From Clostridia bacterium (lineage in GTDB: Bacteria > Bacillota > Peptococcia > DRI-13 > SM3-B62), in contig JAHDQS010000024.1 of the NCBI GenBank assembly GCA_018433675.1, forward strand, positions 1 through 64,000: a DNA stretch of 64,000 bases. Reading direction: 5' to 3'. This document shows, piece by piece, positions 5,909 to 44,957 of this stretch. The notes beneath the pieces were generated by a model. That model was given only the letters and a program-made list of their open reading frames with translations, was not told where the DNA came from and did no database searches. Every line of letters begins with the position of its first letter. Positions within the stretch are counted from its first letter, which is position 1. Position numbers and translations under genes: made by a program.

Positions 5909-6745
5909 TCATTCGTTTTCGAGTATATACCCAACGTGTCGTATTTCAAAGAACATATCTTTATTTATAAGCACAATGATGATAGCAACAGCTGCGATAA
6001 CTATGGTCTCGAAGCATTTTGTAACCTGCGTCATGGCTATTTGTTCCTGAAAAAAATTAACAAAGAAATGGAATACCATACAGGCAAAAATGCTTCGCCC
6101 ATTTTTTACATAGACCCATGTCAGCAAAAAGCCCATCGGTACAATGCTGATAAAGAAATTTACCATATACCATACATTCATTTGCAGGATACCGTATTGG
6201 TAGGTATCCGGTATAAAGAACAATGGCAAATGCCATAACGCCCATACGATACCGAAAATAATGGATTCCTGAAACCAACTGCAATAAAAAGCAACGGAAT
6301 CCTCTGCATAACCACGCCATCCAAGTTCTTCTAACAGCGCGGTCAAAACAAGCGTTAACAGTGTGGGAATACCACCGATGGAAAAGGAAAATCCACCCAC
6401 AAAGGAAAATTGATTAATGGATTCTCCAAACAGAAGGGAGATCAGAATGGAGATAACTATAATAAGCCCCATTACTGCAATTGCAAAAATTACATTTAAC
6501 GGCTTGATTCTGTAAAAGCCAGACAACTTATCTTTATAATCCTTTTTCAGTGCCCTGCTTTTTGATTTTAACACCATTACAAGCGAGGTTACGGAAGGTA
6601 CAAACAATCCTAAAACCATCAGAATTATGCTGATGCCATTGTCAAAATCGGTACGGCTGATGATAGCCGCCGAAAACCAAAAAATCCAAGTGAAAAGAAA
6701 TACGGCACTAAAAAACACAAGAGGTTGATATTTGTAAGCTTTAAT
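5909..6745 (-). CDS. CPBP-family intramembrane metalloprotease
   Basis: This multi-pass protein is an ABI/CPBP (CAAX-protease-like) enzyme of about 270-278 aa. Its motifs are EELGWRGY (two Glu and Arg, near residues 130-135 counted from GTG 6718), FGIVWALWHLPLFF (His) and VFHFFVN (His/Asn). The family cleaves substrates within the membrane; some members process or confer immunity to peptides. The only conventional start is GTG 6718. However, the frame continues upstream through KAYKYQPL, typical of family N termini, to an ATT at 6745 that is 6 nt from a GGAGGT site, so I extend it there. It follows an XRE regulator by 2 nt and should be cotranscribed. Confidence 0.82.
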   Translation of the reverse strand: MKAYKYQPLVFFSAVFLFTWIFWFSAAIISRTDFDNGISIILMVLGLFVPSVTSLVMVLKSKSRALKKDYKDKLSGFYRIKPLNVIFAIAVMGLIIVISILISLLFGESINQFSFVGGFSFSIGGIPTLLTLVLTALLEELGWRGYAEDSVAFYCSWFQESIIFGIVWALWHLPLFFIPDTYQYGILQMNVWYMVNFFISIVPMGFLLTWVYVKNGRSIFACMVFHFFVNFFQEQIAMTQVTKCFETIVIAAVAIIIVLINKDMFFEIRHVGYILENE

Positions 6746-6747
6746 TA

Positions 6748-7644
6748 TTACACCTCCCAGGGAGCATGCGTATATTCGTTGATCACAAGTTCGGCATTCA
6801 TCCCTTTAAGCTCAATGATATTCTCTGCATCTTCATTTAGCGGGGAAGCGCAAGACTGATTGTCAACTGTATATAAAATACTGTTTGAGCGTCCCTTCTT
6901 TTTCGCAAAATAGACTGTTCCTTTCGGAACGTGAATAGTAGAAGTAGCAGAAATTTGGTTTATATCGATACAGCCATTCAAACCTGCACAGACAATATTC
7001 ATATCTGTGGAACAATTTAATTCCAGAAGCCCCTTTATGCTGTTAACATGTACATTGCTTACCTTTCCGTCAAACTCCAAAACATTAATTTCCATATGAT
7101 TTACGCGCAGAGTATTGATAATGGCGGAAAGCTCAAGATCGACAAGAAATTTTGATGGAATACCTATAAATATGTATAAAGCCTCTTTTGCTTGAGCTTC
7201 ACTCACATTTCCTACACGATTAACATTCACATCGATGCGGCTCTTTCGATCGTCAATTTTTACCTTAAAGCTGCTTTCCAGAGTATTTATAACATTGGAC
7301 GCCAGACGCACACGGATTTTTTCGCTTTCCGTGCTCTCTATAACGACTTCAAATGCACCGCCTGCATTAATATCATAGTGCTTTTTGTAATCAATGTCGT
7401 ACTCGGTAATACTTTCATATAAAAAACCCGAAGCGTTGCGAATATTCTTTTTAGCAGACATTAGTTCATCCACCGAAATATTAAACAGCGCTGCAATCGC
7501 TAAAAGATTTTCTACATCCGGTATACCTCCACCTGTTTCCCATTTGGTAATTGCCTGTCTGGAAACATTGATTTTTTCTGCAAGCTGTTCTTGAGACATC
7601 TCGAACTGTTTTCGCATGGTTTTTACTTTTTCTGCAAAATTCAT
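6748..7644 (-). CDS. XRE-type regulator with C-terminal DUF4097-like domain
   Basis: Residues ~3-60 form a classic HTH (MSQEQLAEKINVSRQAITKW). A short linker leads to ~220 residues rich in beta strands with alternating hydrophobic patterning, of the type annotated as DUF4097 or adhesin-like. Such fusions may let a sensor-like beta domain control DNA binding; this is inference. ATG 7644 follows GGAGGTAA with 6 nt spacing; the longer frame from 7659 would place this site inside the gene. It is the first gene of a two-gene unit with the downstream CPBP protease and probably regulates that unit. Total length is 298 aa. Confidence 0.78.
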   Translation of the reverse strand: MNFAEKVKTMRKQFEMSQEQLAEKINVSRQAITKWETGGGIPDVENLLAIAALFNISVDELMSAKKNIRNASGFLYESITEYDIDYKKHYDINAGGAFEVVIESTESEKIRVRLASNVINTLESSFKVKIDDRKSRIDVNVNRVGNVSEAQAKEALYIFIGIPSKFLVDLELSAIINTLRVNHMEINVLEFDGKVSNVHVNSIKGLLELNCSTDMNIVCAGLNGCIDINQISATSTIHVPKGTVYFAKKKGRSNSILYTVDNQSCASPLNEDAENIIELKGMNAELVINEYTHAPWEV

Positions 7645-7790
7645 TTGAGTTACCTCCATTCTGTTGATGTTTCAAGTATAGTCAATCATAGTTTACAAAC
7701 AAGCAAATATGTCTTACAATCTTATGATTTTATGCTACTTTGCGTAGCATTTTCGAGTTTTTGGATACAAAAAAACAGGACTGTCTACTA

Positions 7791-13463: not shown

Positions 13464-13838
13464 CTAGACCTCCTCATCCAGCAGCCTTCTCAGGCTTTCT
13501 ATTTCTTCTTTTGATATCTGCTGCTCTTTAATAAAACTTGCCAGCATCAGATTTACAGAGCCGTCATATACTTTTTCTAAAAAGGATTTATTGGCACTGG
13601 CTTTGAAATCACTTTCACAGACAAGCGGGGTATACATAAACGCCTTACTTTCTGTTTTCACAGGTTTAACCGCGCCCTTTGTCACCAAGCGGTTAATGAA
13701 AGTCTGCACGGTTTTCGGCTTCCACTCTGCTGTTTGTGAAAGTCTCTCAATTATTTGGGAGCTTGTAGCATTGCCGTACTCCCAAAGAGCTTTCATTACT
13801 TCTAATTCGGATTCCGAAATTTGCGGAATTGTCTTCAT
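13464..13838 (-). CDS. BlaI/MecI/CopY-family repressor
   Basis: This 124-aa winged-helix repressor has ISESELEVMKALWEYGNATS followed by a recognition region (WKPKTVQTFINRLVTKGAV). Its C-terminal helices dimerise and contain the region cleaved in BlaI homologues (here LMLASFIKEQ). It precedes its M56 partner by 3 nt. Two TACA-n2-TGTA palindromes lie directly upstream, consistent with autorepression. By analogy the M56 protein would cleave it upon signal. Confidence 0.9.
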   Translation of the reverse strand: MKTIPQISESELEVMKALWEYGNATSSQIIERLSQTAEWKPKTVQTFINRLVTKGAVKPVKTESKAFMYTPLVCESDFKASANKSFLEKVYDGSVNLMLASFIKEQQISKEEIESLRRLLDEEV

Positions 13839-13867
13839 TCAGGATAACCTCCGTTTAAACGAGAATG

Positions 13868-13907
13868 GATTACATATGTAATCTCGATTTAATATTACAC
13901 ATGTAAT
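13868..13907. promoter_or_regulatory. Tandem BlaI-type operators
   Basis: Two dyads match the BlaI/MecI TACA-n2-TGTA core: GATTACATATGTAATC (13868-13883) and ATTACACATGTAAT (13894-13907). They are spaced 26 bp centre to centre, immediately upstream of the repressor gene. Confidence 0.85.
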
Positions 13908-14029
13908 CCATTTTTGTCAATATGCTTTTCTCTAACAATCTTAAAAATATAGATATCAACAGAATATCTAACATACGTTCTTTATAACAACAAAAGCAGG
14001 ATCCTCATGCTGGATAACCCGCTTTCATT

Positions 14030-14197
14030 CTATGACAGTTTAGGAAATGATATGTTTAGCAGCCGCATGATTTCCTTCTCGGACTCAAGTACCCGTTCAG
14101 CAATAAAGTCTAGAAACTGTCGGTCATCCTTGTGTGCCCTCTCCAACAGGATAAATATAAACAAACTTCTTGTGGAGCTGAGCAACGTATTTTGAAC
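14030..14197 (-). pseudogene. C-terminal fragment of an unrecognised protein
   Basis: An open minus-strand stretch without a good start encodes a helical, charged tail (...HKDDRQFLDFIAERVLESEK...) ending at TAG. It reads like the end of a real protein, but I cannot name the family. A weak hairpin lies beyond the stop. The rest of 13908-14282 shows no gene. Confidence 0.25.
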
Positions 14198-14282
14198 CGG
14201 TTATGATTACCGATCAACTTTTTCGTACCAAAATAGTGTGGCTTGTCTAGTACTTGGTTTTTATATTTTTACTGAATTTGAA

Positions 14283-15215
14283 TTATTTATCAAACATTAT
14301 CTCAATATTTCCGGAGCCTGTTTTTACATCAAGAATTTTATCCCCTTGTACTCCATCTTCGTCTGCGGGTAATTTCACATTTCCTGATGTAGATGATGAA
14401 ATAAAGCTATATTCGCTACTCTTGTCAGATATGTTTCCTTTGATATTGCCAGATATGGCGCTTAGGGTAACAGACTCATTTGCATAAATATCTTTGAAAC
14501 GAATATTGCCTGAAGTTAAGTCAGCCTCAAACACATCCGAGGTTATATTTTGGAAGTATATTTGCCCTGATATTGCTTCTAGCTTAAAAGACTTTGCATT
14601 GCCAATGTTAAAAACATCTATGTTACCGCTATCGACTTTCCCATAATAATTGCCATTTAGCGTTATGTCTTTCATCTTGATATTGCCGGACATAGCTGTA
14701 ACGTATATATCTTGTCCGCTCGATGCATTATTGATTTCAATTGTCCCTGACAATGTACTTACGGAAATCCCTCTTTCCACGTCTATACCGTCAGCATATA
14801 TTTGACCTGACTGGCTAGACAAGGATATCTTTCCATTGTATTTTTGGGGAAGTTCGATTTTGAGCGTATAGAATTTTTTTTTGCGAAATCTTAAGTTTGA
14901 AAAACCAAATAGACTTTTTCTATTATGATATGTAACAGTTAATACACCGTTAGCTTCATCAGTTTCGCAGTTGGCTCTCTTATTGCTATACCAACTTAGC
15001 CTGATGTCCTTACCGGAATATTTTTCAACAACTATGTTGTAGCTATCAAAATCTGCATTAATTGTATGTATATTATTAGCATCAAAAGTCTCTGATGATT
15101 TTTTGAAACCGTTAAATATGTTACCCGATATAAATATCCAGAACATTATAAGCAATATAATGGCGAGAATTACTATGCCAGCAAAAACAACTTTACTATT
15201 ATCTTTTGTATTCAT
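14283..15215 (-). CDS. Membrane-anchored DUF4097 beta-repeat protein
   Basis: This 310-aa protein has one N-terminal TM segment (residues ~9-30) and then an extracytoplasmic beta-rich domain. About eight repeats of the SGxI/SGN type occur (LSSQSGQIYADG, VSTLSGTIEIN, VTAMSGNIKMK, LEAISGQIYFQN), the hallmark of DUF4097-type right-handed beta-helix proteins. AAAAGGAGAGG precedes the ATG. It is the last gene of a five-gene minus-strand operon led by a TetR regulator. Function is unknown; a surface or envelope-stress role would fit. Confidence 0.75.
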   Translation of the reverse strand: MNTKDNSKVVFAGIVILAIILLIMFWIFISGNIFNGFKKSSETFDANNIHTINADFDSYNIVVEKYSGKDIRLSWYSNKRANCETDEANGVLTVTYHNRKSLFGFSNLRFRKKKFYTLKIELPQKYNGKISLSSQSGQIYADGIDVERGISVSTLSGTIEINNASSGQDIYVTAMSGNIKMKDITLNGNYYGKVDSGNIDVFNIGNAKSFKLEAISGQIYFQNITSDVFEADLTSGNIRFKDIYANESVTLSAISGNIKGNISDKSSEYSFISSSTSGNVKLPADEDGVQGDKILDVKTGSGNIEIMFDK

Positions 15216-15238
15216 TATACCTCTCCTTTTAATTGGCG

Positions 15239-16312
15239 TTATCCGTTAAACTTGATTTCATAGGCAAATTTGAGCTTTCGGTGGTAATCCAATTCAACTA
15301 AATCGGTTGGTTTAACCTTAGTGTTTTTTTTGTCAAAATAGCCCACACCTGCATATTGCAACATCTGATATACAAACTGAGAGCAGAACATGATGTTTGG
15401 CTTTAGAGTAAATTTTAGTACAAGTCCAAGTAAATTGTATGCGCTACCTTCACAATTGATTTCTAACACCTTTTCTATTATTTTTCGCTTTTGCTCTTTG
15501 GTAATTTTCAGGCTGTAAACCAGGATTGAAGAATCAGGCTTATTGTGCAAAGCCTCAATTATTTCGTGATTTAAACCTGGCATATGTACGTTTTGACCGC
15601 CGTTATAGCTTATGATTGTCTTTAAATCACTATCAAAAGAAAGGGAAACATGGTTAAATCGTCTACAAGTAAAAACTGACAGCATCTCGCTTGCAGGACT
15701 TCCCGAATCAGTAAGAACAATATATATGTTGTCATCTTCAAGGCTTGAGTAAGCAGCATTTTCATACTCTTTTGTCAGGCTACCGTTATTTACATAGCGA
15801 CACGAGCTGTTATTTGATAATTCTTTGAGTACTTGACCAATGTTTTCTTTATTAAAAACAGACGTGATTCTTTTACAGGTTTCAACCCCTTCGATTATTC
15901 GCTCTTTTTCGTAAATAAGCTGAGAATATGCAAATGTGCCATCGGCCTGTAACGAAGGCATCACGAAAGTTTCATTGTTATTTTGAAATAACACCTTTTC
16001 AATAATTGGAGATAATAATATTAACGCAGTGCTTGTGAGTTTTAATATCACAAAGACCAAGCTCTCCTCGCTATGAGAAAAGACTAACAGTGTAAAATAT
16101 AAAATTTGCAAAACCATTATTAGGGCATATACAAAAAATTGCAGTATTTTCTCGCTCAGATGTATTGTACTACATATAATTCGGATAACCATAAAAACAA
16201 ACACAAATATGCTCGCCAAAACAAACACAACATAGTCACCAAAGTAAAATACAGTCAGCAAGATGCCCGTTACGAAAAGCCCTAATAGTATTTTCAGTAT
16301 TTTTGTGTTCAT
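15239..16312 (-). CDS. Membrane protein with YiiX-like papain-fold (NlpC/P60 superfamily) domain
   Basis: This 357-aa protein has four or so N-terminal TM helices (~residues 5-110). A C-terminal domain follows with a circularly permuted papain arrangement: a His in FNHVSLSFD (~215) and a later Cys in NIMFCSQFVYQML (~310), then KPTDLVELD. That order (His before Cys) and the tail KPTDL are typical of YiiX/YebB-like permuted NlpC enzymes, which act on peptide, amide or acyl bonds. It is separated by 6 nt from the membrane gene upstream and 23 nt from the DUF4097 gene downstream. Confidence 0.65.
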   Translation of the reverse strand: MNTKILKILLGLFVTGILLTVFYFGDYVVFVLASIFVFVFMVIRIICSTIHLSEKILQFFVYALIMVLQILYFTLLVFSHSEESLVFVILKLTSTALILLSPIIEKVLFQNNNETFVMPSLQADGTFAYSQLIYEKERIIEGVETCKRITSVFNKENIGQVLKELSNNSSCRYVNNGSLTKEYENAAYSSLEDDNIYIVLTDSGSPASEMLSVFTCRRFNHVSLSFDSDLKTIISYNGGQNVHMPGLNHEIIEALHNKPDSSILVYSLKITKEQKRKIIEKVLEINCEGSAYNLLGLVLKFTLKPNIMFCSQFVYQMLQYAGVGYFDKKNTKVKPTDLVELDYHRKLKFAYEIKFNG

Positions 16313-16318
16313 TGCTCC

Positions 16319-16957
16319 CTACCTATCTTTACTGCTGTTATTGCTTATCCTAAATTTGCTAAAGGAAAATACACCTAGCAGGCAAATCAGAACACCAAGG
16401 CTTGGATATATCGCCCAAAATGTATACGATGATGTGACGATGTTTATAGTGATGAAAAAAATAATTGCTAATATACTACCGGCAATCGACATTGTTAAAT
16501 ATTGCTTTTTCTTTGCAAAAATTACACTAACAGCTGCGATAATTGCAGGAAATACGATATAGATTGCCCATGGCTGAGACGGCTCTACGAAAATATTGAG
16601 TATTCCGTAATAGCAGCACAGAGCGACCAAAGTGAGTATAAATTTCTTTTGTTTAGGCAAGAATTTTGCAATTGGCCACCATGTAAAAGGAAAATAAGTG
16701 TAAACAGCCCAAACTGTGTTAGGTGATGTTAATCTGTTAATTAACCACAAAAACAAGGCAGTACCCAACCCTCCAATTATCGAGATTAGCTTGGGGCTTT
16801 TCCTCGCAATACAAGCCAGTGGCCACCACAAAATAGCGTAGGAAGGATATATAAACCACGGGTGTATGTCCCAAGATGTTAAAATATTTATTGTCAGCAC
16901 CATAATGATTATCATGGTACTGGAAACTACGGCTATGAAAAATGCCTTTTTATTCAA
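16319..16957 (-). CDS. Multi-pass membrane protein with four aromatic repeats
   Basis: This 212-aa protein has about eight TM segments and no catalytic motif I recognise. A W-hydrophobic-x-Y-x2-aromatic signature recurs four times (PWFIYPSYAILWWPLA, VWAVYTYFPFTWWPI, PWAIYIVFPAI, FWAIYPSLGVL), spaced about 45-50 residues. This suggests four copies of a 2-TM unit. Its start overlaps the end of the ATP-grasp frame by 8 nt and its stop lies 6 nt before the papain-like gene, so it belongs to the TetR operon. Confidence 0.6.
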   Translation of the reverse strand: MNKKAFFIAVVSSTMIIIMVLTINILTSWDIHPWFIYPSYAILWWPLACIARKSPKLISIIGGLGTALFLWLINRLTSPNTVWAVYTYFPFTWWPIAKFLPKQKKFILTLVALCCYYGILNIFVEPSQPWAIYIVFPAIIAAVSVIFAKKKQYLTMSIAGSILAIIFFITINIVTSSYTFWAIYPSLGVLICLLGVFSFSKFRISNNSSKDR

Positions 16958-18245
16958 TTATTATCCCTCCTAAGACTTCTTCCGGTTTCATCTTTGATAT
17001 TTTGGGAATTGCCTTTCCCAGTGAATAATTAGATATTGCTTTCTCAGCTTGAGAATTATTACTTTTCGGATTAATCATAAGCTGAAGAAATACTACACTT
17101 AAAGGAACCATTGAAGTAAAATCCTTTGCAACAGGCGTTACACCTTCGTGACTATTTACGTATATCCCCCTCTTAGAAGAAACCAGACACATTTCTTTCA
17201 ATATGTCAAACCGTGAATACCGTTGCCCTGCAGCCGCCAGTAAAGCCTGAATAGCGGAATGACTTTTATTTATTATATGACTGGTATTATTAGCTGGAAT
17301 GAATTCTCCTACAGAGAGCCGAACCTGCATTTCGGCGAAGTTGATACCATTTACCATAGCGTTCATCGGCTCAGTAATACGCGGATTAGCATCAATATAA
17401 TATGCCTTACCATCTTGTTCATTATAAAAATAGTCGATGGACAGGCTTCCATGCCACTTGAGAGATGCCCCGATTTTCTCAAGATTTTGTCTGACAATAG
17501 GGCGATCTACTCCTACTTTGCTGATAGCCCCACCCCCCAAGCCTTCTTTCAGGCGACGGGTGCAATGGATTGCAAGTAATCTCCCCTAATCAAAGATGGA
17601 GTGCAATTGTTCAAAATGACCCTTAGATGCTTCCTGAACAATCAATTCGGTTTGTCCGTTTAATATCTTCTGCGTGTTCAAGCTTTCCTTCAACAAATTC
17701 AAATCCAGATTGTCTTTGATCCGCCAGACTCCAGTGCTTGCCGTTCCATAGTCCATCTTTATGTAACAGGGCATACAAAAAAAGCTCACAGCCTCTTCTA
17801 TCTCATCCCAAGTCTTTGCATAACGTGTGCGTGGATGAGGCAGTTTAATTTCATCAAGATAACGCATAAATGCCGATTTGGTTTGCAAACGTTGAAAAGA
17901 CAAAAAGTCGGATACCGCTATTCCAACTAGAGGAGTTAGATATTTTTTAGCCCAAGCAAAAAGGAACGCTTGCTCATTTGCCGGGAAAAGTACGTCGTAG
18001 CCCCGCTCTTTGATGAGCCTGATAACGAATTTAAGATAGCCTACGGGGTCATCTCCGGACTTCGGGCATTGATAAATCTTGTGAATATAAGTCGAAAAAC
18101 GTCCCATACAAAATGGGTTCGGATCGCAAATATCTATGGTATATCCCAAGGGACCTAATGCGGTAATCATTTCACGGACATTGGTACTCGACCCCTCTGA
18201 AAGCAGTATTCGCAGACGAGAATTAGTATTTTTTTTGTTTGACAT
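16950..18245 (-). pseudogene. ATP-grasp ligase interrupted by one in-frame TAG
   Basis: Codons on both sides of TAG 17586-17588 are in the same frame and together encode a typical ATP-grasp enzyme of about 430 residues. The N-terminal half has the preATP-grasp fold and the nucleotide-binding strand PCYIKMDYGTASTGVW. The C-terminal half (from GRLLAIHC after the TAG) holds the Mg-binding YIDANPRITEPMNA. Such enzymes ligate carboxylates to amines or thiols via acyl-phosphates. The neighbouring papain-like and membrane genes suggest a small-molecule or envelope-modifying pathway. Either it is a nonsense pseudogene (a single change from CAG or AAG) or the codon is read through. The start lies 22 nt after the tetR stop. 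Confidence 0.75.
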
Positions 18246-18267
18246 AAGTGTTCTCCTTATTTGCAGG

Positions 18268-18876
18268 CTAAAAATTCAGTTTATGCGAGAACATCTCTAT
18301 AACCACTTTCTGGATCCTCTCAGGGTCTAATTCGCGCCCTTGAACAAGACTATGCATCATGAGACCATCCATTGTTGCCATTATAACCACAATCATGCTG
18401 GAAATATCCGGCTTAGGATTAATCTGCTCTACAGCCTGCCCTTGAGTTATCAAATCGTGCAGTAATTTGTAAAAACGATTATAAGAGTCAGCCTTGATCG
18501 ATTCCAGACCGGGAATTCGGTCACTCTCAATAAATCCTTCAACAGACAGACGTGTGTATGCGTATTTGTTATCTCTGCTCACCAGATTTCCAAGACAATT
18601 AAGCATCTTCTCAAATTTCACCTTAAGCGGGTCTGTTTCTTCAAAAGCACCTGAAAGAAGTTCATAACGCTTGTGAAAAATATAATCCATGGTCGAAGTA
18701 AATAACTCTTCCTTGTTTTTAAAATAAATATAGACTGCTCCTTTGCTAATTTTAAGAGCTTGACAAATTTGGTCCATCGTAGTCTGACGATAACCGTATT
18801 CAGCAAAGACCTTGGCTGAGCCTTCGATAATTCGTTTTTTCTGGGTCTGTTCATAGTCAGGCGATACACGTGGCAT
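18268..18876 (-). CDS. TetR/AcrR-family transcriptional regulator
   Basis: This 202-aa protein has an N-terminal HTH (IIEGSAKVFAEYGYRQTTMD, then ISKGAVYIYFKNKEELF). A helical ligand-binding domain follows. ATG 18876 is preferred over 18882 because GGAGGT is only usable with it. A 32-bp palindrome overlapping its -10 implies autoregulation. It heads the operon that includes the ATP-grasp, membrane, papain-like and DUF4097 genes. The inducer is unknown. Confidence 0.88.
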   Translation of the reverse strand: MPRVSPDYEQTQKKRIIEGSAKVFAEYGYRQTTMDQICQALKISKGAVYIYFKNKEELFTSTMDYIFHKRYELLSGAFEETDPLKVKFEKMLNCLGNLVSRDNKYAYTRLSVEGFIESDRIPGLESIKADSYNRFYKLLHDLITQGQAVEQINPKPDISSMIVVIMATMDGLMMHSLVQGRELDPERIQKVVIEMFSHKLNF

Positions 18877-18888
18877 ATTCATACCTCC

Positions 18889-18945
18889 ATAATAAAAACT
18901 GACTGGTCAGTTTTTATTATGGCACGAGATAATATATTTTGTCAA
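18889..18945 (-). promoter_or_regulatory. TetR promoter with overlapping palindromic operator
   Basis: On the minus strand TTGACA (plus 18940-18945) and CATAAT (plus 18916-18921) are 18 bp apart. A palindrome with perfect 15-bp arms around a 2-nt centre spans 18889-18920, with core ACTGAC-TG-GTCAGT. It covers the -10 and start region, as expected for a TetR operator. Confidence 0.75.
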
Positions 18946-18972
18946 GAAAGAAACGGCAGTTTCTTTCTTGAC
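18941..18972. repeat. Perfect 14-bp inverted repeat
   Basis: GTCAAGAAAGAAAC (18941-18954) and its exact complement (18959-18972) surround GGCA. It overlaps the -35 of the tetR promoter. It has no T-run on either side, so a terminator role is unlikely; a second operator is possible. Confidence 0.6.
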
Positions 18973-19024
18973 GCTACTTGACAGTCTTTATTGCTGGAGA
19001 TGGCACAATAGACTAAGTTGGGTT

Positions 19025-19465
19025 TTATTTTAATGCAATGTAAATATCAATGTCTGCATTCTCCCCATCAATATTAAGATATTCCTCAAAATCTCCTGTA
19101 AAGCTTCTGTCCAAATCCATTTTCCAGATTTCGCCCCAAGCCTCGGCAACTGCTTTTTCCATATTCCCATGTACAAAAAACTTTGCATATTTTCCGGCAG
19201 GAATCATTTTTACAGTCAGTTCATCATTCTCTGGTTTTGAAACCTCATTTCCGGCAGTAACGCAATATTGGTCATTTGAGTAGTCAGAATAAAGCCCGAT
19301 GGCATACTCGTTTATCTTATTTTTGATTGTAGCATTTACTCCGCCTTGATATAACTTTTTCCACAGTCCACCAATAACTTCCCCCATTTTAGGATCAGCA
19401 TTTCCTGTAATTGCACTTACCCCTACCACTGTTTTTTGCTCTAAATTTACGATTTCATAATTCAT
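19025..19465 (-). CDS. GyrI-like / effector-binding domain protein
   Basis: This 146-aa stand-alone GyrI-like (AraC effector-binding) domain starts MNYEIVNLEQKTVVGVSA and contains MIPAGKYAKFFVHGNM and a C-terminal EEYLNIDGENADIDIYIALK strand, all typical. Such domains bind small hydrophobic ligands; some protect gyrase. ATG 19465 is chosen for a GGAGG site about 8-9 nt upstream. It follows the WYL regulator by 67 bp, and an operator-like palindrome matching the one in front of that regulator lies between them, so it is probably that regulator's target. Confidence 0.8.
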   Translation of the reverse strand: MNYEIVNLEQKTVVGVSAITGNADPKMGEVIGGLWKKLYQGGVNATIKNKINEYAIGLYSDYSNDQYCVTAGNEVSKPENDELTVKMIPAGKYAKFFVHGNMEKAVAEAWGEIWKMDLDRSFTGDFEEYLNIDGENADIDIYIALK

Positions 19466-19509
19466 TTTAGATAACCTCCATCTATTTGATAAGGCTATTA
19501 TACTTTGCC

Positions 19510-19535
19510 TAATACGACAACTGTATGTCATATTA
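19510..19535. promoter_or_regulatory. Palindromic operator upstream of the GyrI-like gene
   Basis: TAATACGAC-N8-GTCATATTA lies between the WYL regulator stop and the GyrI-like gene. It matches the element at 20458-20483 in arm sequence (one mismatch) and in spacing. Confidence 0.7.
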
Positions 19536-20429
19536 AAGATAATGGTTTAATGTGTTCTGCAGTTCTGCTTTCACATCAATTCTTACGTCCTTTGGTTCCA
19601 AAACTTCACATTGGCTGCCGAAAGTTGTGATGTAGTAAAAAATCCATTCACCCTTTGGATAATTGATTTCCGCAATAAAACTTCCGTCCTCTTGTTGCTC
19701 ATAACGATCGAATTCATCGTATACCCTGTAAGCAACCTTCGCAGATAGCTTTAGTTTTAGTTTTACATACTCTTCCTGAAACACATTCTCGTTAGAAAAA
19801 ATTTGTTTGGGGGATTTCCGCTGAAAATTTTGCTCTGATACACAAAGCTCCCTGATTCGCCTTAACTTAAAGAAACGGAAATCAGCTCGCGACTTACAAT
19901 ATCCATATAAATACCATGCACCACTTTTAAAGCAAAGTTTTAAAGGCTCTACTTCGCGTGTTGTCCGCTGCCCTTTTACACTGGCATAGGAAAAAGAAAC
20001 AACTCTCTTGCCTAATATTGCAGACTTAATCGTATTGAATGTTTCAGTTTCGTTCTGTGCGTTGGCCCAAGAAGAAAAATCCACTTCAATCCAATCTGTG
20101 TTTGATTCACCAAACAAGCTGCTGAGCTTTTTAAGCGCGGTATCTGTTTTGCTGAGATTAACAGCGTTTACAGCTTTTAGTGAAGATAGAATATCCTCTT
20201 TTTCTTCATCCGTTATAACAGCTTTATTCAGCACAAAATCAGGCAGCAGTGAAATACCGCCGCCCTTACCTTTGCTCATATACACAGGAATACCTGCAGA
20301 AGATAATGTTTCAATATCACGATAAATAGTTCTGGTTGAAACCTCAAATCGCTCTGCAAGTTCCTTAGACGTGACCGTTTTTTTCCCAAGCAGGATATAT
20401 ATAATTTCGAACAATCGGTTAATTTGCAT
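19533..20429 (-). CDS. HTH-WYL (YafY/DeoR-type) transcriptional regulator
   Basis: This 298-aa regulator has an N-terminal HTH_11 domain (VTSKELAERFEVSTRTIYRD). A central WYL domain contains WYLYGYCKSRADFRFFKLRRI, and a WCX-type C-terminal extension completes it. WYL regulators commonly sense nucleotides or small ligands and control stress or defence genes. ATG 20429 follows AGGGTG; the frame upstream to 20474 would run across the operator. Paired palindromes upstream of it and upstream of the next gene imply autoregulation plus control of the GyrI-like protein. Confidence 0.85.
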   Translation of the reverse strand: MQINRLFEIIYILLGKKTVTSKELAERFEVSTRTIYRDIETLSSAGIPVYMSKGKGGGISLLPDFVLNKAVITDEEKEDILSSLKAVNAVNLSKTDTALKKLSSLFGESNTDWIEVDFSSWANAQNETETFNTIKSAILGKRVVSFSYASVKGQRTTREVEPLKLCFKSGAWYLYGYCKSRADFRFFKLRRIRELCVSEQNFQRKSPKQIFSNENVFQEEYVKLKLKLSAKVAYRVYDEFDRYEQQEDGSFIAEINYPKGEWIFYYITTFGSQCEVLEPKDVRIDVKAELQNTLNHYL

Positions 20430-20554: not shown

Positions 20555-21271
20555 CTAAACATCTGTATATTTAAATGTCTGCACGGCCAACAGCAAAGCA
20601 ATAATCAATACGGTAAGTAATAAACCTGTACTTATCAGCCAGCCGCCTACATTTAAAGCAAAGGCGTTACGCAGTCCATCAATAAACCATTGAAATGGAT
20701 TAAAGCGAGTGATCGTTTGCAGCCATACCGGAGCCCTGTCCAACGCATAAAAGGCATCGCTGCAAAAAAGCAACAGCATGGACGCAACGTTGGTAGCCAT
20801 GCTGACATGTGCTTCCGTCCGACACATACTGGATACAAAAAAACTGAGGAACACATATCCAAGCGCCGCCAAAAGCACGACAGGCAGCAAAAGCAGGATG
20901 GAGAGCTCGGAAACGTCCAACTGGAACACAATCTTTCCCGCCACAAAGACCAGCATTGCGCAGAGAAACGAGACCAGCGTCCATGCACCTGAAACCCCGG
21001 AGATATATTGCCACAGGGGCATGGGCGTCACACGCAGCAGACTGTAGACACCTCTGCTACGCTGTCCTAGGATCGTAAAGGCCGTTGTTGTAAATGCATA
21101 GAACAAAACGCCCACCGCCATCATACCCGTCATAATGCGCAAAGGATATCCCACTTGCTTAATAAACAACCCCAGACCGACGGTGCCGCCAACGGGCAGG
21201 AGAATCGACCAAAACAATAAGAATGGATCACGTGATGTAGCTTTGAGTGTCAACCCTAATATCGTTTTCAT
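20555..21271 (-). CDS. ABC-2 type transporter permease
   Basis: This 238-aa permease has six TM segments of the ABC-2 type, including the conserved loop QRSRGVYSLLRVTPM and the later ALDRAPVWLQTITRFNPFQW before the last helices. It should pair with the ATPase encoded upstream, whose gene is broken by frameshifts (5 nt gap), so the transporter may be non-functional. ATG 21271 has a GGGATGAT-like site; the longer open frame to 21391 lies inside the ATPase gene. Substrate unknown; PadR-linked ABC-2 exporters are often drug or peptide pumps. Confidence 0.78.
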   Translation of the reverse strand: MKTILGLTLKATSRDPFLLFWSILLPVGGTVGLGLFIKQVGYPLRIMTGMMAVGVLFYAFTTTAFTILGQRSRGVYSLLRVTPMPLWQYISGVSGAWTLVSFLCAMLVFVAGKIVFQLDVSELSILLLLPVVLLAALGYVFLSFFVSSMCRTEAHVSMATNVASMLLLFCSDAFYALDRAPVWLQTITRFNPFQWFIDGLRNAFALNVGGWLISTGLLLTVLIIALLLAVQTFKYTDV

Positions 21272-21275
21272 TGTA

Positions 21276-21986
21276 TCATCCCATCCTTTCATCAGTTTCC
21301 GTAAGCTTGAGATATAGATCCTCCAGATTATCGAGATGATGCTCCCGTAACAAGGACTTCGGCTGCCCCCGTGCAACAATCCGCCCATCATTGATGAAAA
21401 TCAGGCAGTCGGCTGTTCGTTCCACTTCCTCCATATCATGTGAGGAGAACAAAACCGTCCGATGGTCACTGGCAAGACAACGGATCATCAGCCGGATATC
21501 GTGACGGACGCGTGGGTCCAGTCCTGCCGTCGGCTCATCCAGTACGATCAGATCGGGTCGATGTACGGTGGTGACCGCAATGGCCAGACGTTTTTGTTGT
21601 CCCACGGATAACCGGATAGCAGGCGTTTTCCCGGCCTCCGCCAGGTTACATGCTTCCAGTTTTTCGCGAAGTTGCGTTTTGCTCAGCTTCACATGATACA
21701 TTGCAGCAAACAGCCTCAGATTTTCCTCCGCCGTATAACCTTCGAAAAACGGAGTTGATTGTAACTGAACGCCGATATAGGCACGGTAATCCTCCCGTCA
21801 ATAAGTAACACTCCCGGCATCCGGTTTTAGGATACCCATCAACATGGAAATGGTCGTAGACTTCCCGGCCCCATTGGGGCCGATCAAAGCAAGAATATGC
21901 CCTTGCTCGATTTCGAGATCAATCCCTTTTATAACTTCGCGGTCACGGAACCGCTTCTTCAGAGCTTTTGCAGTAATCAGATTCAT
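21276..21986 (-). pseudogene. Frameshifted ABC transporter ATP-binding protein
   Basis: The N-terminal part from ATG 21986 (AAAGGAG site) holds Walker A GPNGAGKSTT and reads to DAGSVTY then TGA. The next few codons (LIDGR) are in a second frame. DYRAYIGVQLQSTPFFEGYT and all the rest, including signature LSVGQQKRLA and Walker B LIVLDEPTAGLDP, are in a third frame to 21276. One extra base near 21810 and one missing base near 21797 would repair it. Either the gene is recently dead or the assembly carries two errors. It partners the ABC-2 permease downstream and probably the PadR repressor upstream. Confidence 0.78.
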
Positions 21987-22077: not shown

Positions 22078-22611
22078 CTATGAATTTAGCAATTGCATAG
22101 CTTTTGAAACAAAATACTGCTGCTGACAGATGATAGCGAACATGTTTTCAAAAACCAGTTTTGTCATAGCGGGTAAATCTCCGTCCAGCGCTTCCTTTTT
22201 CGCTTTGAGTCCCTTTTCAAGAGTCTGATATTCACGATCAAGAGCATCTGTTTGAAGGCTTAAAGCTGTCAACGCTTCATCTTTGGGTAACTTATGCACA
22301 TAAGATAATCCAGAATACAGCGTGGATGGGTATATAACCGATGAAGCTTTTAGTGCATCTCTTGCTAGTTCTTTAAGATGGTTTTTTCCTTTTTCGGTAA
22401 TCTGATAGACTGCCTTTTGCCGGTGCCCTGTTTGCTCGATGCTGGCAACCTCAACAAGTCTTTCTGTCTCCATTTTCTTCAGCGCATGATAAATAGAACC
22501 GATAAGTACGCCTCCCCAACGCTCCGCATCCGTCAGCTTAAGCATTTGCTGGACATCATATCCCGACATAGGCTGCATATCAAGCAGCCCAAGCACAAGC
22601 AATCTGGTCAA
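22078..22611 (-). CDS. PadR-family transcriptional regulator
   Basis: This 177-aa PadR protein has the N-terminal winged helix typical of the family (LLVLGLLDMQPMSGYDVQQM, GSIYHALKKMETERLV, KAVYQITEKGKNHLKE). A C-terminal helical dimerisation arm follows. It starts at TTG 22611, with GGAGGTGAG upstream; no ATG fits. PadR repressors usually control adjacent exporters, here the ABC ATPase/permease downstream on the same strand. Confidence 0.85.
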   Translation of the reverse strand: MTRLLVLGLLDMQPMSGYDVQQMLKLTDAERWGGVLIGSIYHALKKMETERLVEVASIEQTGHRQKAVYQITEKGKNHLKELARDALKASSVIYPSTLYSGLSYVHKLPKDEALTALSLQTDALDREYQTLEKGLKAKKEALDGDLPAMTKLVFENMFAIICQQQYFVSKAMQLLNS

Positions 22612-39823: not shown

Positions 39824-41633
39824 GTATGACGGGCATGCCGTCAATCTGTGGTGAAAGTCCACGAGGGGCGTAGTTGCCGACGAACCCCAGAGCGACTTGC
39901 AAGTTTCACATCGTGAGGTGTGGGAGAGAAGAAGCAATAGCGAAATCGTAGCCTGACGAACAGAAACCTAATACCAAGGCTTGCATGGCGGATAAGCTGG
40001 CCGAAAGCGGTGAAGTCCAAAAGGCAACCGTAACCCATGCAGGTAAATTAGGCAGGTAGACGAGGAAAGATTGACGACTTATCCCGTGAGGTCTCACAGA
40101 CGGAGGAATCTGTAGTAACAACGAACTGTGAGAAGTCAGCAGAGACCATACTACTGAGAAATCAGGAAGGGTCGAACAATTCAAGGTCGACTGGACTTTG
40201 GAATGTGAGTGCATAGGCTCGACGAGAATCAAAGTAGCGAGGTCGTAACCGAGCGAAAGATTCATAGGAGTTAGGGCTAATGTGCATGAGAGCAAAGGAG
40301 AAAAGGAGACGAGTATGAGCCAACTAATGGAAGAGATACTCAGCCAAGAGAACATGACACGAGCCTACAAGAAGGTGAAGGCGAACAAAGGTGCAAGTGG
40401 AGTAGACGGAATTTCCGTAGACGAAGCACATGAGTACCTTAAGGGGAACTGGTCGAGTATCAAAGAGCGTATCCGAAGGAGGAAGTACAAGCCACAGCCG
40501 GTGCTGCGAGTAGAAATACCGAAGCCAGCTGGTGGAGTGCGGAAACTGGGGATACCAAGCGTGGTAGACAGAATCATAGAACAGGCAATCGTGCAGGTAA
40601 TAACTCCTATTGTAGAACCATATTTTAGTGACTACAGTTATGGATTTAGACCTGACAGGAGAGCACAGCAGGCAGTCATCAAACTGCTTGAATATCTCAA
40701 CGATGGATACACCTATATAGTAGACATTGACCTAGAGAAGTTCTTTGATAATGTGCCACAAGACAAGCTGATGACCCTAGTTGGTAAAATCGTAAAAGAC
40801 CCCGACACGGAATCGCTGATAAGTAAATACTTAAAAGCGGGGGTAATGGTAAAAGGGAAATATGAAGCCACCAACGTGGGAACACCACAGGGCGGAAACC
40901 TATCACCAATCCTAAGTAACATCATGTTGAATGAGCTGGATAGAGAACTCGAAGCAAGAGGGCTGAATTTTGTCAGGTATGCAGATGACTGCATAATTGC
41001 AGTAGGAAGCAGTGCAGCAGCCAATCGAGTAATGAACTCCATCGTGAAATGGATAGAAAGAAAGCTCGGGCTAAAAGTAAACATGACAAAGACGAAGGTA
41101 GCGAAACCAAGCCGTCTAAAATACCTAGGTTTTGGCTTCGTAAAGATGGGTGACAAATGGGAAGCAAGACCACATCAAGACTCCGTAATGAAATTTAAAC
41201 GGAGACTGAAAAAGCTAACCAAACGCTCTTGGTCAATCAGCATGAGTGAAAGGATCCAAAGGCTGAACTGGGTCATCAGAGGCTGGATAAACTACTTCCG
41301 AATCGGAAAGATGAAGCAAAAACTCACTAGAATCGATGAGCACCTGAGAACGAGAATGAGAATAGTTATCTGGAAGCAGTGGAAGACCAGCCAAAAGAGA
41401 TACTGGGGACTTAGGAAACTGGGAGCACCCGAGTGGATGGCGAAACAGTCAGCTGGGTTTGGTGACCACTACCAAGCGGTTGCCAAAACCACAGGACTCC
41501 GAAAAATATCAAAAGAAATCCTCGCAAGGCGAGGACTCGTTAGTTGTGTAGATTACTATTTGAATTGAACCGCCAGGTGCCGAACGGCATGCCAGGTGGT
41601 GTGAGAGGGGGAATAAAATTTCCTCTACTCGAT
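39824..41633 (+). mobile_element. Group II intron, bacterial class C (IIC)
   Basis: The 5' end is placed at GTATG (39824), followed by a class C-like domain I (GGGCATGCCG, then TCTGTGGTGAAAGTCCACGA). The 3' end carries domain V (GAACCGCC...GCCGAACGGC...GGTGGTGTGAGAGG) and ends CTACTCGAT at 41633. The domain V wording and the ORF without an endonuclease domain match class C introns such as that of Oceanobacillus iheyensis. Insertion directly downstream of a terminator stem is the known target choice of the class. The 5' boundary could be 1-2 nt off. Confidence 0.8.
40315..41568 (+). CDS. ltrA: Group II intron reverse transcriptase/maturase
   Basis: This 417-aa intron-encoded protein has RT blocks from ASGVDGISVDE through YSYGFRPDRRAQQAV, GTPQGGNLSPILSNIMLNEL and the catalytic FVRYADDCII. 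A maturase (X) domain follows (LNWVIRGWINYFRIGKM). It ends soon after with no HNH endonuclease domain, as in class C introns. ATG 40315 follows AAAGGAG. It aids splicing of its own intron and retromobility to terminator stems. The protein appears intact, so the element may be active. Confidence 0.92.
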   Translation: MSQLMEEILSQENMTRAYKKVKANKGASGVDGISVDEAHEYLKGNWSSIKERIRRRKYKPQPVLRVEIPKPAGGVRKLGIPSVVDRIIEQAIVQVITPIVEPYFSDYSYGFRPDRRAQQAVIKLLEYLNDGYTYIVDIDLEKFFDNVPQDKLMTLVGKIVKDPDTESLISKYLKAGVMVKGKYEATNVGTPQGGNLSPILSNIMLNELDRELEARGLNFVRYADDCIIAVGSSAAANRVMNSIVKWIERKLGLKVNMTKTKVAKPSRLKYLGFGFVKMGDKWEARPHQDSVMKFKRRLKKLTKRSWSISMSERIQRLNWVIRGWINYFRIGKMKQKLTRIDEHLRTRMRIVIWKQWKTSQKRYWGLRKLGAPEWMAKQSAGFGDHYQAVAKTTGLRKISKEILARRGLVSCVDYYLN

Positions 41634-41829: not shown

Positions 41830-42501
41830 TCAAACACTTCTCAGCAGGTAACACTTATTGTCATAATAGACTTTCATTCCATCCAAAATGCCCTTGATAA
41901 ATTTCTGAACTTCATCTTTGATATGTTCTAAATCCGTTAAGGTCATATCTCTTGCACAATCACCAAATGACTCATCCCCATGAGCCAGATTGTTCCTCTT
42001 ATCTTTTACCGTTCTTAAACAACCACCATCGTCTGAAGCCACATATCTTATACAGTGTTTATCACAAAGCTCCCTTATAGCCCTCGCGTCCAAATTGCCA
42101 CCAAACCTCCGATTTTCACGATGAAGTATAATCGGTTGGTTAAGCAGCACCTGATTAATAATGGTTTGGACTTTTTCCTCATAGGTTTTCCGTCCGGCGC
42201 CGCTTAAATGGAGTTGTCCGATTTCATAGTTTGACCAGATCATTCTGACTTCGTCGATAAGCTCATTGTATCCAATTTGACTATTCTTGACGCTCTCATA
42301 TATCTCCATCAGTCCGCTAGCCACACACGCCTCAACCAAATTATAAAGCATCAACAGCAGGTTGGACTTTAAGATGCGCTGAAATCGTGAATTATCAATG
42401 GTCTGAACTTTCCCGCTTCCATTTTCAATTTCAACCATAATGGAATAGTAAAACTCAATTTCTGACACCCTATCCTCAAAGAGAAGCAACGTACTATTCA
42501 T
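41830..42501 (-). CDS. HEPN-domain nuclease of the MAE_28990/MAE_18760 type
   Basis: This 223-aa all-helical protein fits the MAE_28990-like HEPN family: RILKSNLLLMLYNLVEACVA near residue 43, GGNLDARAIRELCDK near 134, then VKDKRNNLAHGDESFGDCAR. The HEPN RNase signature R-x4-H is intact (Arg169, His174). HEPN proteins of this kind are predicted metal-independent RNases in conflict systems. ATG 42501 overlaps the end of the DUF262 gene by 8 nt (AAGGATG site), so production is coupled. It is the last gene of the methyltransferase operon and a likely effector. Confidence 0.8.
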   Translation of the reverse strand: MNSTLLLFEDRVSEIEFYYSIMVEIENGSGKVQTIDNSRFQRILKSNLLLMLYNLVEACVASGLMEIYESVKNSQIGYNELIDEVRMIWSNYEIGQLHLSGAGRKTYEEKVQTIINQVLLNQPIILHRENRRFGGNLDARAIRELCDKHCIRYVASDDGGCLRTVKDKRNNLAHGDESFGDCARDMTLTDLEHIKDEVQKFIKGILDGMKVYYDNKCYLLRSV

Positions 42502-43549
42502 TGGCAACATCCTTCAACAATTGATCTCTGACATATTCAACTCGTTTTTTCAATTTTCCTTGGTTGTTGCTTGCGTCTGAAGTGGTTAATTCGTCAAATT
42601 CGGGAGTATCAAGCCAATCAACTGATTGCGCAGTTAAGTTGGGGTTACTTCTAAGCGCAAGGGCAACACCGACTGAAATCGCTTCAAACCTAACTCTTGG
42701 TGTCGTTGTCGCATTAACTGTTTTTGCGAATCCATATTGAAAATGCTTTCCAACAAACTCACATGTCTGTTTAAATTCAGCCCAATACTTCTTTTCGTCA
42801 AAATTGTTCTGATGTGTAATTAAAAAAGAATCTAAAAAAGTAGCTACCTGATGGTCAAATGAAGTATAGTCATTTACATAAGCAAAAAAGCGGAGAACAA
42901 GTTCAAACCGTTCATGGCGCTTCTCCTGTGTTTTAGAAACAGGACACAAGCGTACAAACATGGAGTCTTTTGCGCACTTGTCAATGAATTTTGTGAGTTT
43001 CCCCGGATATGTACCACGGCGAAATTCTGAATCATTAATTTTTATTCCCGCACGGTTCACTCTACTAAAAATATCTTGCCTAAGGTCGTCAGGAGTATTA
43101 TGATCAAGAACAACAATACGCAAGGTCCTATTATAGAAGCGCCTTTGTTGTGATTCAGAAAGGTCAGAAAAGGTAAACCCATCCAAATCAGTTAATTTTG
43201 GAAGACCAGATAACTGCAGCTGATTTTCTGAAAAGGATACAAGGGTATTGATTCGCTGAACGCCATCAATAATCTCTAATCTGCCATCTTCACAGTCTCC
43301 TAAAAACATAAACGGAATTGGGAGTCCTAAAAGGACGGACTCAATAAAAGAAGCCCTATTCTTTTCTGCCCAGATAAAATCGCGTTGATAGTCCGGCACA
43401 AAAAAATCCCCTCTTTTGAACTTGGACACAATCAACTCGACTGTGAAATCTTTTGTATCATAATCAACACGTCGTTGCAACTCCTTAAGCTGCAATTCTG
43501 CCTTATCTTTCTGCTCAGACGAAAGAGCCTTACTCTTTTTAGTTGGCAT
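42494..43549 (-). CDS. DUF262 (GmrSD N-terminal / ParB-like) protein
   Basis: This 351-aa protein has a DUF262 domain: FFVPDYQRDFIWAEKNRASF, then LEIIDGVQRINTLVSF containing the DGxQR motif (Asp95, Gln98, Arg99), and later VNRAGIKINDSEFRRGTYP. In GmrSD and BrxU this domain hydrolyses nucleotides and controls or carries DNA cleavage of modified DNA. Here it lacks a fused DUF1524 HNH domain (no HxxP-type tail seen), so cleavage may depend on the HEPN partner. The GGAGGTAA site lies in the last codons of the methyltransferase gene; the gap is 1 nt. Confidence 0.85.
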   Translation of the reverse strand: MPTKKSKALSSEQKDKAELQLKELQRRVDYDTKDFTVELIVSKFKRGDFFVPDYQRDFIWAEKNRASFIESVLLGLPIPFMFLGDCEDGRLEIIDGVQRINTLVSFSENQLQLSGLPKLTDLDGFTFSDLSESQQRRFYNRTLRIVVLDHNTPDDLRQDIFSRVNRAGIKINDSEFRRGTYPGKLTKFIDKCAKDSMFVRLCPVSKTQEKRHERFELVLRFFAYVNDYTSFDHQVATFLDSFLITHQNNFDEKKYWAEFKQTCEFVGKHFQYGFAKTVNATTTPRVRFEAISVGVALALRSNPNLTAQSVDWLDTPEFDELTTSDASNNQGKLKKRVEYVRDQLLKDVANE

Positions 43550-43550
43550 T

Positions 43551-44594
43551 TTAATTTACCTCCTCTATATGACGCCGAATACTTTCACCAATAGCGACTC
43601 CCAAGTTCACGGGTACAGCGTTTCCGATATGTATCCCCAATTCCTTTTTGCTAACAATCATGTTTGGCGGCAAAAAATCATAGTCAGGCGGAAAAGACTG
43701 GAGCATCGCCCCTTCTCGTAAAGAAATGCCTCGATCTTGCTCTGGATGCCCAAATCGACCATTTCCATAACCATAAAACTGCGTCGTTATTGTTGGCGCA
43801 GGTTCGTTCCACGACATTCGACCATATACAGACGGATAAGTAATGCCGCTCTCTTTTTTGTGGCAGGTTAGTTGCAAGTTTTCATCCCAATCACGCCAAG
43901 TACCCCCGGGTACAGACTGCTTAATCCGCTTAATGTTTATTGATGATAACTGGGCAGCCGTATGTAGAGAGTCATCTTTTGAAGATTGCCCTGCCTTTAT
44001 AGGAGGAAGCATCCCAATTGAATCTTTGACAGTTAAGTAATTTTCAGGCGTATACTGTGGTTCTATCAGTTTAATATCTCCAAGTCTTGATGCAAGAAGA
44101 ACCAGTCTGCGCCTTCCTTGAGGAACACCATAATCAGGGCAGAAAGCTATGCTCCATGAAACGTGATATCCTAAATCAGTAAGTGTGTTTCTAAAATCAT
44201 CAAAAACAGGCTCTGAAGCCAATTCTGGAACATTCTCCATAGAAACTATTTCTGGCAAAATATCAGTGACTTTTTCTGCAAAAGAGTATAGCAATTTCCA
44301 TTTATCTCCTTTGTGGCCATCCTTACGATATCTTTGCGTATATTTTGAAAAAGGCTGACATGGAGCACAGCCAACTAATGCGCGGACAACTTCAGCAGGG
44401 TATAGGCTCACAATCTCGTCCGATGCGAGTTGAGCGACATCAGCCTCAATGAACTGTGCATCATTGTTTTTTTCATATGCATATTGGCATGTCGAATCAA
44501 TATCTATTCCTGCAAGAACTTGCAATCCCGAACGTGTAAGTCCGTGAGTCAGACCGCCTATTCCACAGAATAAATCTATTACAGCACATGGCAT
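43551..44594 (-). CDS. DNA cytosine-5 methyltransferase
   Basis: This 347-aa enzyme is a complete m5C methyltransferase. Motif I is IDLFCGIGGLTHGL, motif IV GCAPCQPFSKY (catalytic Cys79), motif VI MENVPEL, and motif VIII PQGRRRLVLLA. A target-recognition region follows, then motif X HIGNAVPVNLG. It transfers a methyl group from SAM to cytosine at an unknown target sequence. It lies 4 nt after a small controller-type XRE gene (GGAGGTGAG site) and 1 nt before DUF262. Its place implies it protects host DNA or marks self. Confidence 0.93.
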   Translation of the reverse strand: MPCAVIDLFCGIGGLTHGLTRSGLQVLAGIDIDSTCQYAYEKNNDAQFIEADVAQLASDEIVSLYPAEVVRALVGCAPCQPFSKYTQRYRKDGHKGDKWKLLYSFAEKVTDILPEIVSMENVPELASEPVFDDFRNTLTDLGYHVSWSIAFCPDYGVPQGRRRLVLLASRLGDIKLIEPQYTPENYLTVKDSIGMLPPIKAGQSSKDDSLHTAAQLSSINIKRIKQSVPGGTWRDWDENLQLTCHKKESGITYPSVYGRMSWNEPAPTITTQFYGYGNGRFGHPEQDRGISLREGAMLQSFPPDYDFLPPNMIVSKKELGIHIGNAVPVNLGVAIGESIRRHIEEVN

Positions 44595-44598
44595 AATG

Positions 44599-44850
44599 TT
44601 ATCTCACCTCCTTGGACTTTTTTTGCAGTAATGGGTGGTTGTCATTATCAACGAATAATAAATATGCGTCGATTCCCAACGCTACTGCGATTTTTTCAAT
44701 ATTGTCAAGCGAAATACTACGCTTTTCACGCTCAATTGCACTAATATATGTTCGGTGTAATCCAGCAATACCTGCAAATTCCTCTTGCGACAAGCCTCGC
44801 TCTGTGCGATATCGCTTGAGATTACTTGCGAATGTACTTAATAGACTCAT
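44599..44850 (-). CDS. Controller-type XRE regulator (C protein)
   Basis: This 83-aa single HTH protein has FASNLKRYRTERGLSQEEFA followed by GIAGLHRTYISAIEREKRSI and LDNIEKIAVALGID, matching controller proteins of type II restriction-modification systems in size and sequence. ATG 44850 follows GAGGTGG; the upstream extension to 44931 would run over the promoter. Two direct repeats overlap its own -35, as C-boxes do. C proteins time expression so that methylation precedes toxic activity, and the same logic would apply here. Confidence 0.87.
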   Translation of the reverse strand: MSLLSTFASNLKRYRTERGLSQEEFAGIAGLHRTYISAIEREKRSISLDNIEKIAVALGIDAYLLFVDNDNHPLLQKKSKEVR

Positions 44851-44870
44851 ACCACCACCTCTGATAATAT

Positions 44871-44912
44871 ATTTTACATGAATTTCAGACAATAAGTCAA
44901 CAGACAATAAGT
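44871..44912 (-). promoter_or_regulatory. C-box repeats and promoter of the C-protein/methyltransferase operon
   Basis: On the minus strand ACTTATTGTCTG occurs twice (plus 44886-44897 and 44901-44912) with a 15-bp period. TTGACT (plus 44895-44900) and TAAAAT (plus 44871-44876) are 18 bp apart, so the repeats straddle the -35. The wording is close to the GACT...AGTC boxes of known C proteins. Confidence 0.75.
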
Positions 44913-44957
44913 AACATACAAAAATAAACATTAGCTGAATATCATTACCCTCTCCAT

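Follow-up and report, generated by a model that had tools for sequence, protein, structure and literature searches.

Within a 64,000-nt stretch of a Clostridia bacterium genome (assembly GCA_018433675.1, contig JAHDQS010000024.1, positions 1 to 64,000; hereinafter the window), five co-directional coding regions occupy positions 14283-18882 of the minus strand, separated by gaps of 22, -8, 6 and 23 nt and each preceded by a Shine-Dalgarno-like sequence. In order of transcription they specify a TetR-family regulator, an ATP-grasp ligase, a four-repeat membrane protein, a papain-like enzyme related to Pfam family C92 and a DUF4097 protein (Table 1). An earlier interpretation made from the DNA letters (hereinafter the sequence-only reading) had described this layout, and its coordinates and gaps were reproduced; all five coding regions are present, but the second is not one open frame; the other four frames and the promoter/operator are intact. 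The operon appears self-repressed, its intact genes look like membrane-lipid sensing and remodelling machinery, and, because the ligase gene is cut by a stop codon, the whole departs only modestly from envelope systems already known.

Table 1 Features of the operon and its control region in the window, and lipid kinase fusions of the C92 domain in other genomes
Feature	Position	Strand	Basis or remark
TetR-type operator, 17-bp perfect arms CCATAATAAAAACTGAC / GTCAGTTTTTATTATGG, 2-nt centre	18887..18922		covers -10 box
Second perfect palindrome, 14-bp arms GTCAAGAAAGAAAC / GTTTCTTTCTTGAC, 4-nt centre	18941..18972		overlaps -35 box
Sigma-A-type promoter, TTGACA-18 nt-CATAAT, extended -10 TG, 11/12 consensus	18916..18945	-	consensus scan
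TetR-family regulator, 204 aa	18268..18882	-	PF00440, E 1.1e-15
ATP-grasp ligase gene, broken by in-frame TAG	16950..18245	-	reading frame; fold with TAG read as residue
Premature amber codon (TAG), codon 220 of 431	17586..17588	-	reading frame; homologue alignment
Four-repeat integral membrane protein, 212 aa, TTG start	16319..16957	-	repeat self-alignment; paralogue in own genome
Membrane-anchored permuted papain-like enzyme (C92/YiiX-like)	15239..16312	-	profile, alignment, fold
DUF4097 'toastrack' beta-helix protein, LiaG-like, one N-terminal transmembrane segment	14283..15215	-	PF13349, 81.6 bits
C92-YegS-type lipid kinase fusion genes	L024 457-2127; L087 1540-3177; L088 4428-6062		intact; broken relative in L089

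An autorepressor-type control region

The TetR assignment of the sequence-only reading is borne out by PF00440 (E 1.1e-15), and MbdR (4uds) is the only strong PDB sequence match of the regulator. The single palindromic operator of that reading was also recovered, as a 36-bp palindrome with 17-bp perfect arms (18887-18903 and 18906-18922) that stops just short of the GGAGG and ATG of tetR. The promoter, with its -35 TTGACA at 18945-18940 of the minus strand, is the best of 29 matches within 13800-19600 (shuffles give 20.7 on average); such a match is weak on its own, but its position between two palindromes and ahead of tetR adds weight. The operator core AAACTGACNNGTCAGTTT has a zero-mismatch match only at 18887-18922 in the whole 3.0 Mb genome, a uniqueness that fits an autorepressing TetR of local action. 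With a palindromic operator overlapping its own promoter, the anatomy gives good support to the TetR-led, autoregulated operon that had been proposed, and TetR would be expected to bind there. A wider TetR regulon was considered and rejected: no second perfect operator occurs in the genome, and the two sites with two mismatches (42755 and 68088) are near the control count. The second palindrome (18941-18972), missed in the sequence-only reading, differs in sequence from the TetR operator and is a possible site for another regulator.

A diverged C92-like protein with permuted catalytic residues

The papain-like protein scores 14.6 bits with PF05708 (C92), under the gathering cut-off of 27, and the C92 paralogue and sister relatives also all fall under that cut-off; the protein is a diverged relative of Pfam C92, not a model-defined member. 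The permuted papain-like assignment of the sequence-only reading, sub-threshold in Pfam, nevertheless finds support in profile and fold searches. 3kw0 is the only PDB match of the alignment profile, and four 3kw0 chains are the best fold matches of the AlphaFold model (predicted local distance difference test, pLDDT, 74), with probability 0.72-0.98 and E 0.12-0.39. His221, Tyr292 and Cys310 are invariant among 18 aligned relatives and stand in permuted order, so that both the circular permutation, in which the catalytic His precedes the catalytic Cys, and the signature Tyr before the Cys helix are present. An N-terminal transmembrane (TM) region (residues ~1-110) is followed by the catalytic domain (~185-355). 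Five TM segments are predicted in the window's protein and three or four in its orthologues, a variation that leaves the membrane side of the C92 domain unfixed by hydropathy alone.

Permuted NlpC/P60 enzymes such as YiiX, LnsA and LRAT handle acyl lipids, and the LRAT/HRASLS enzymes are superfamily relatives with known phospholipase or acyltransferase work on lipids. The window's protein resembles the YaeF/YiiX-like members of this group (C92; BcPPNE 3kw0, YiiX 2if6) in the order of His and Cys, the conserved Tyr, the CS[QE]FV active-site helix and its best profile match, with a tentative best match in fold, but differs in carrying a multi-TM region at the N terminus (some relatives have a lipid-kinase domain instead) and in falling below the Pfam gathering cut-off. 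3kw0 is BcPPNE, the reference permuted enzyme, described together with its relative YiiX, which held a fatty acid in the active site; the same work covers the role of the signature Tyr in permuted NlpC/P60 enzymes, and in it Xu et al. proposed that YiiX-like enzymes cleave a fatty acid-amino acid amide (PMC3142127). Tox-Act1, a related family enzyme, is a phospholipase (PMC12994826), and LnsA is required, jointly with LnsB, for lipoprotein N-acylation in Staphylococcus aureus (PMC7387801). Like LnsA, which is thought to be an acyltransferase, the window's protein is a permuted NlpC/P60 enzyme at the membrane, but the relation is at superfamily level only and the operon has no LnsB-type (CPBP) partner. 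Membership in an LnsAB system was rejected; the nearest Rce1-like gene (5909-6718) lies 8.5 kb away and keeps the EExxxR protease motif.

Fusions and neighbours point to membrane lipids

Outside the window's class, three intact genes (genomes G055, G087 and G091; Table 1) join the C92 domain to a YegS-like lipid kinase, and a broken fusion gene is found in G226. These genomes belong to several families; the domains DAGK_cat and YegS_C were confirmed for the G055 fusion, and alignment and reading served to identify the others. No TM region is present in the kinase portion, which suggests that the C92 domain acts on the cytoplasmic face. Our search of papers found no report of a C92-YegS-type lipid kinase fusion. 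Also outside the class are a lone intact C92 gene with PAP2 ~3 kb off (G175), one C92 gene on a short contig (G252) and shorter stand-alone relatives in many more genomes. Neither the ligase nor the C92 protein had a match in genome-contig and viral-contig collections, and phages had none.

In the window's own genome, a 56% C92 paralogue on contig C9 is the third gene of a run comprising glycosyltransferase-2, VTT-domain and C92 genes. Adjoining this run on the opposite strand are genes for a PAP2 phosphatase and for a paralogue (38%) of the four-repeat protein, all within 4 kb. This looks like a second membrane-lipid locus. The compact locus (L046, 3228-8349) also holds PadR and a short protein with one W-x-x-Y repeat at its end. 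A genome of the same genus carries TetR, DUF4097 and C92 genes consecutively.

The four-repeat and toastrack proteins

The four-repeat membrane protein consists of four units of ~48 residues, with W[AF][IV]Y at residues 34, 83, 130 and 181. Its repeats, proposed in the sequence-only reading, were verified by self-alignment, the top scores of 59, 54 and 52 exceeding the maximum of 47 in 1000 shuffles. In a search of 60 relatives and 399 phylum genomes, its only clear relative is the paralogue in its own genome (38% identity). Its TTG start overlaps the end of the ATP-grasp frame.

The DUF4097 protein scores 81.6 bits with PF13349 (cut-off 22.9, E 7e-23), 87.8 bits with the LiaG equivalog model (E 7e-25), which is under that model's cut-off of 285, and weakly matches LiaX. 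Its family assignment in the sequence-only reading stands, but the label of surface protein is not established, since a published proposal places LiaG-type toastrack proteins inside the cell, as scaffolds for envelope-stress systems (PMC11237479). As in Lia/Psp-type toastrack operons (LiaG, PadR-HAAS), a DUF4097 protein is encoded behind a transcription factor and together with membrane proteins; here, however, TetR replaces LiaRS or PadR-HAAS, PspA, PspC and LiaF are absent from the operon, and the protein misses the cut-off that defines LiaG.

The ATP-grasp ligase gene is interrupted

With the TAG read as a residue, the predicted ligase fold resembles the RizA L-amino-acid ligase (Foldseek E 2.6e-17), PylC and PurK, which bears out the ATP-grasp ligase of the sequence-only reading; the gene, however, is not intact. 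A TAG at 17586-17588 (codon 220) ends the product after 219 aa, although beyond it the frame stays open to 16950, and a whole-genome search likewise shows one single stop in the frame. The stop sits within the ATP-grasp domain at a variable turn, where homologues carry R, D, Q or N, and divides the half with the conserved Lys163 from the Asp-x-Asn-Pro-Arg motif (residues 285-289); the truncated ligase should thus be inactive. Read through the TAG, the frame shows both the fold and the NPR motif of ATP-grasp L-amino-acid ligases and PylC/PurK-type carboxylate-amine ligases, but it is interrupted and <31% identical to any homologue found. The nearest full-length homologue (29.9% identity) comes from the actinomycete Streptantibioticus; its locus is unannotated, and high-GC open reading frames suggest a polyketide synthase-like neighbourhood that offers no clue to the substrate. 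The ligase was not found in any relative of the window's class, including the genome with TetR-DUF4097-C92.

No pyrrolysyl-tRNA synthetase (PylS) scores above the cut-off in the genome, the weak matches resembling those, also sub-cut-off, in 12 of the 13 control genomes, and the genes at 13464, 16319 and 23746 in the window also terminate with TAG. The TAG is thus an ordinary stop, and pyrrolysine readthrough was rejected for want of a PylS above the cut-off. A split but working ligase was rejected as well: the ATP-grasp domain itself is cut by the stop, and TTG at 17540, the best start downstream, reads as lacking usable Shine-Dalgarno spacing. The likeliest explanation is a pseudogene or an error in the assembly.

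Three kilobases off, an ATP-binding cassette (ABC) transporter ATPase gene (21277-21986, minus strand) is broken by an in-frame TGA at 21798-21800; the genes of its permease (20555-21391) and of its PadR regulator (22078-22611) seem undamaged. Recoding explains two dead genes with unlike stop codons less well than decay or sequence error in this region does.

Interpretation and alternatives

We tentatively favour an inducible, autorepressed envelope operon whose working core would be the membrane-anchored C92 enzyme acting on the acyl chains of membrane lipids. The lipid kinase fusions, the PAP2, VTT and glycosyltransferase neighbours and the permuted NlpC/P60 family narrow the 'peptide, lipid or cell-wall compound' of the sequence-only reading towards membrane lipids, and a cell-wall target is less likely because the fusion to a soluble-type lipid kinase points to the cytoplasmic face. 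The inducer, substrate, membrane side and partners that we infer from the observed sequence, gene order, palindromes, conserved residues, fusions and neighbours make up the following scheme. The operon's own promoter has its -10 box under the TetR operator; TetR may be freed by a small lipophilic or envelope-damaging ligand, whereupon the operon would be read through. The C92 enzyme, via Cys310, His221 and Tyr292, would form an acyl-thioester with a membrane lipid, which would then be hydrolysed or have its acyl group moved to an acceptor (phospholipase/acyltransferase chemistry, known from LRAT/HRASLS enzymes and suspected for LnsA). The four-repeat protein may be its membrane partner, and the toastrack protein a scaffold or sensor tying C92 activity to the envelope state, as proposed for Lia/Psp systems. 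The ligase would be a former member, probably forming a carboxyl-amine bond on an accessory product and now inactivated by the TAG.

Several points weigh against this lipid-directed operon. The acyl-lipid activity of the C92 enzyme is a prediction from sequence; its Pfam score is sub-gathering, its fold E is only 0.12 and its TM topology is uncertain (5 segments vs 3-4). The four-repeat protein is without a characterised relative. The TetR proteins of the window and the sister species are alike only in the helix-turn-helix (HTH) stretch, and identity between their DUF4097 proteins is 19%; convergence could therefore account for the arrangement that they share.

It is unlikely, in our estimate, that the ligase is functional, its TAG being an assembly error or read through, and that the operon is biosynthetic, the ligase joining an amino acid or peptide to a carboxylate by an amide and the C92 enzyme editing or hydrolysing the product. 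But for the TAG, the 431-codon frame is intact, with Lys163 and the NPR motif kept, its modelled fold resembles those of RizA and PylC, both amino-acid ligases, the gene that follows overlaps its end in the manner of translational coupling, and the amide cleavage proposed by Xu et al. (PMC3142127) would suit such a pathway; these points are countered by the missing PylS, the other window genes ending in TAG, the second gene broken by TGA 3 kb off, and the absence of the ligase from class relatives, including the TetR-DUF4097-C92 one. An amide-forming ligase acting with the papain-like enzyme, as the sequence-only reading had it, is weakened by the interruption of the ligase gene and by relatives that keep the papain-like gene and not the ligase, and the unusual combination of ligase and hydrolase depends on the broken gene. 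We give a similarly low probability to a resistance response, efflux-like or of the envelope-stress kind, against a peptide antibiotic; the C92 enzyme would then degrade or modify the antibiotic or the cell wall, and the DUF4097 protein would be a LiaX-like surface sensor. The weak LiaX match and the neighbouring BlaI/BlaR1, Rce1-like and ABC exporter genes, which suggest an envelope-stress region, are in its favour, but the lipid kinase fusion and the lipid-handling record of permuted NlpC/P60 enzymes favour a lipid substrate, and toastrack proteins have been argued to be intracellular (PMC11237479).

The order of the genes bears on whether they belong together at all. A search of 60 relatives, 399 phylum genomes and 46 genomes of the window's class turned up no second case of the five-gene order, there is no DNA-level synteny with the same-genus genome, and the ligase gene and the neighbouring ABC ATPase gene are both dead, as would be expected of a chance, decaying assembly in a plastic region, in which TetR controls the run and there is no common pathway. 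We regard this as improbable, because the promoter/operator and four of the five frames are intact and two sub-pairs recur independently: C92 with DUF4097 under TetR in the same genus, and C92 near a four-repeat protein at the second locus of the window's own genome. Conservation of the full order in other Clostridia, the check suggested by the sequence-only reading, was thus not borne out beyond these sub-pairs.

Surrounding region

The gene at 6748-7659 (minus strand) encodes an HTH_3 regulator whose long beta-rich C-terminal half reads toastrack-like, Pfam seeing only the HTH; it is followed on the same strand by the Rce1-like CAAX protease gene. Further away, open reading frame translations at 40282-41568 and 42494-45371 show a group II intron-like reverse transcriptase beside a C5-methyltransferase-like gene and a recombinase fragment, which looks like a mobile or restriction region.

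Implications for the C92 subfamily

YiiX-like permuted papain enzymes are widespread in bacteria, and their function was termed poorly understood in 2020 (PMC7387801). A bolder and rather doubtful extension of our reading is that C92 proteins with a membrane region or a fused lipid kinase form an undescribed bacterial family of phospholipid acyl-hydrolases or acyltransferases at the cytoplasmic leaflet, which, with four-repeat and toastrack proteins as partners, would make up an inducible lipid repair or remodelling system of Firmicutes-like bacteria. The part worth keeping is the C92 subfamily with its lipid kinase fusions: together with the PAP2, VTT and glycosyltransferase neighbours, these give one subfamily a concrete, testable substrate class, membrane lipids at the cytoplasmic face, and the TetR operon offers a natural switch for studying it.

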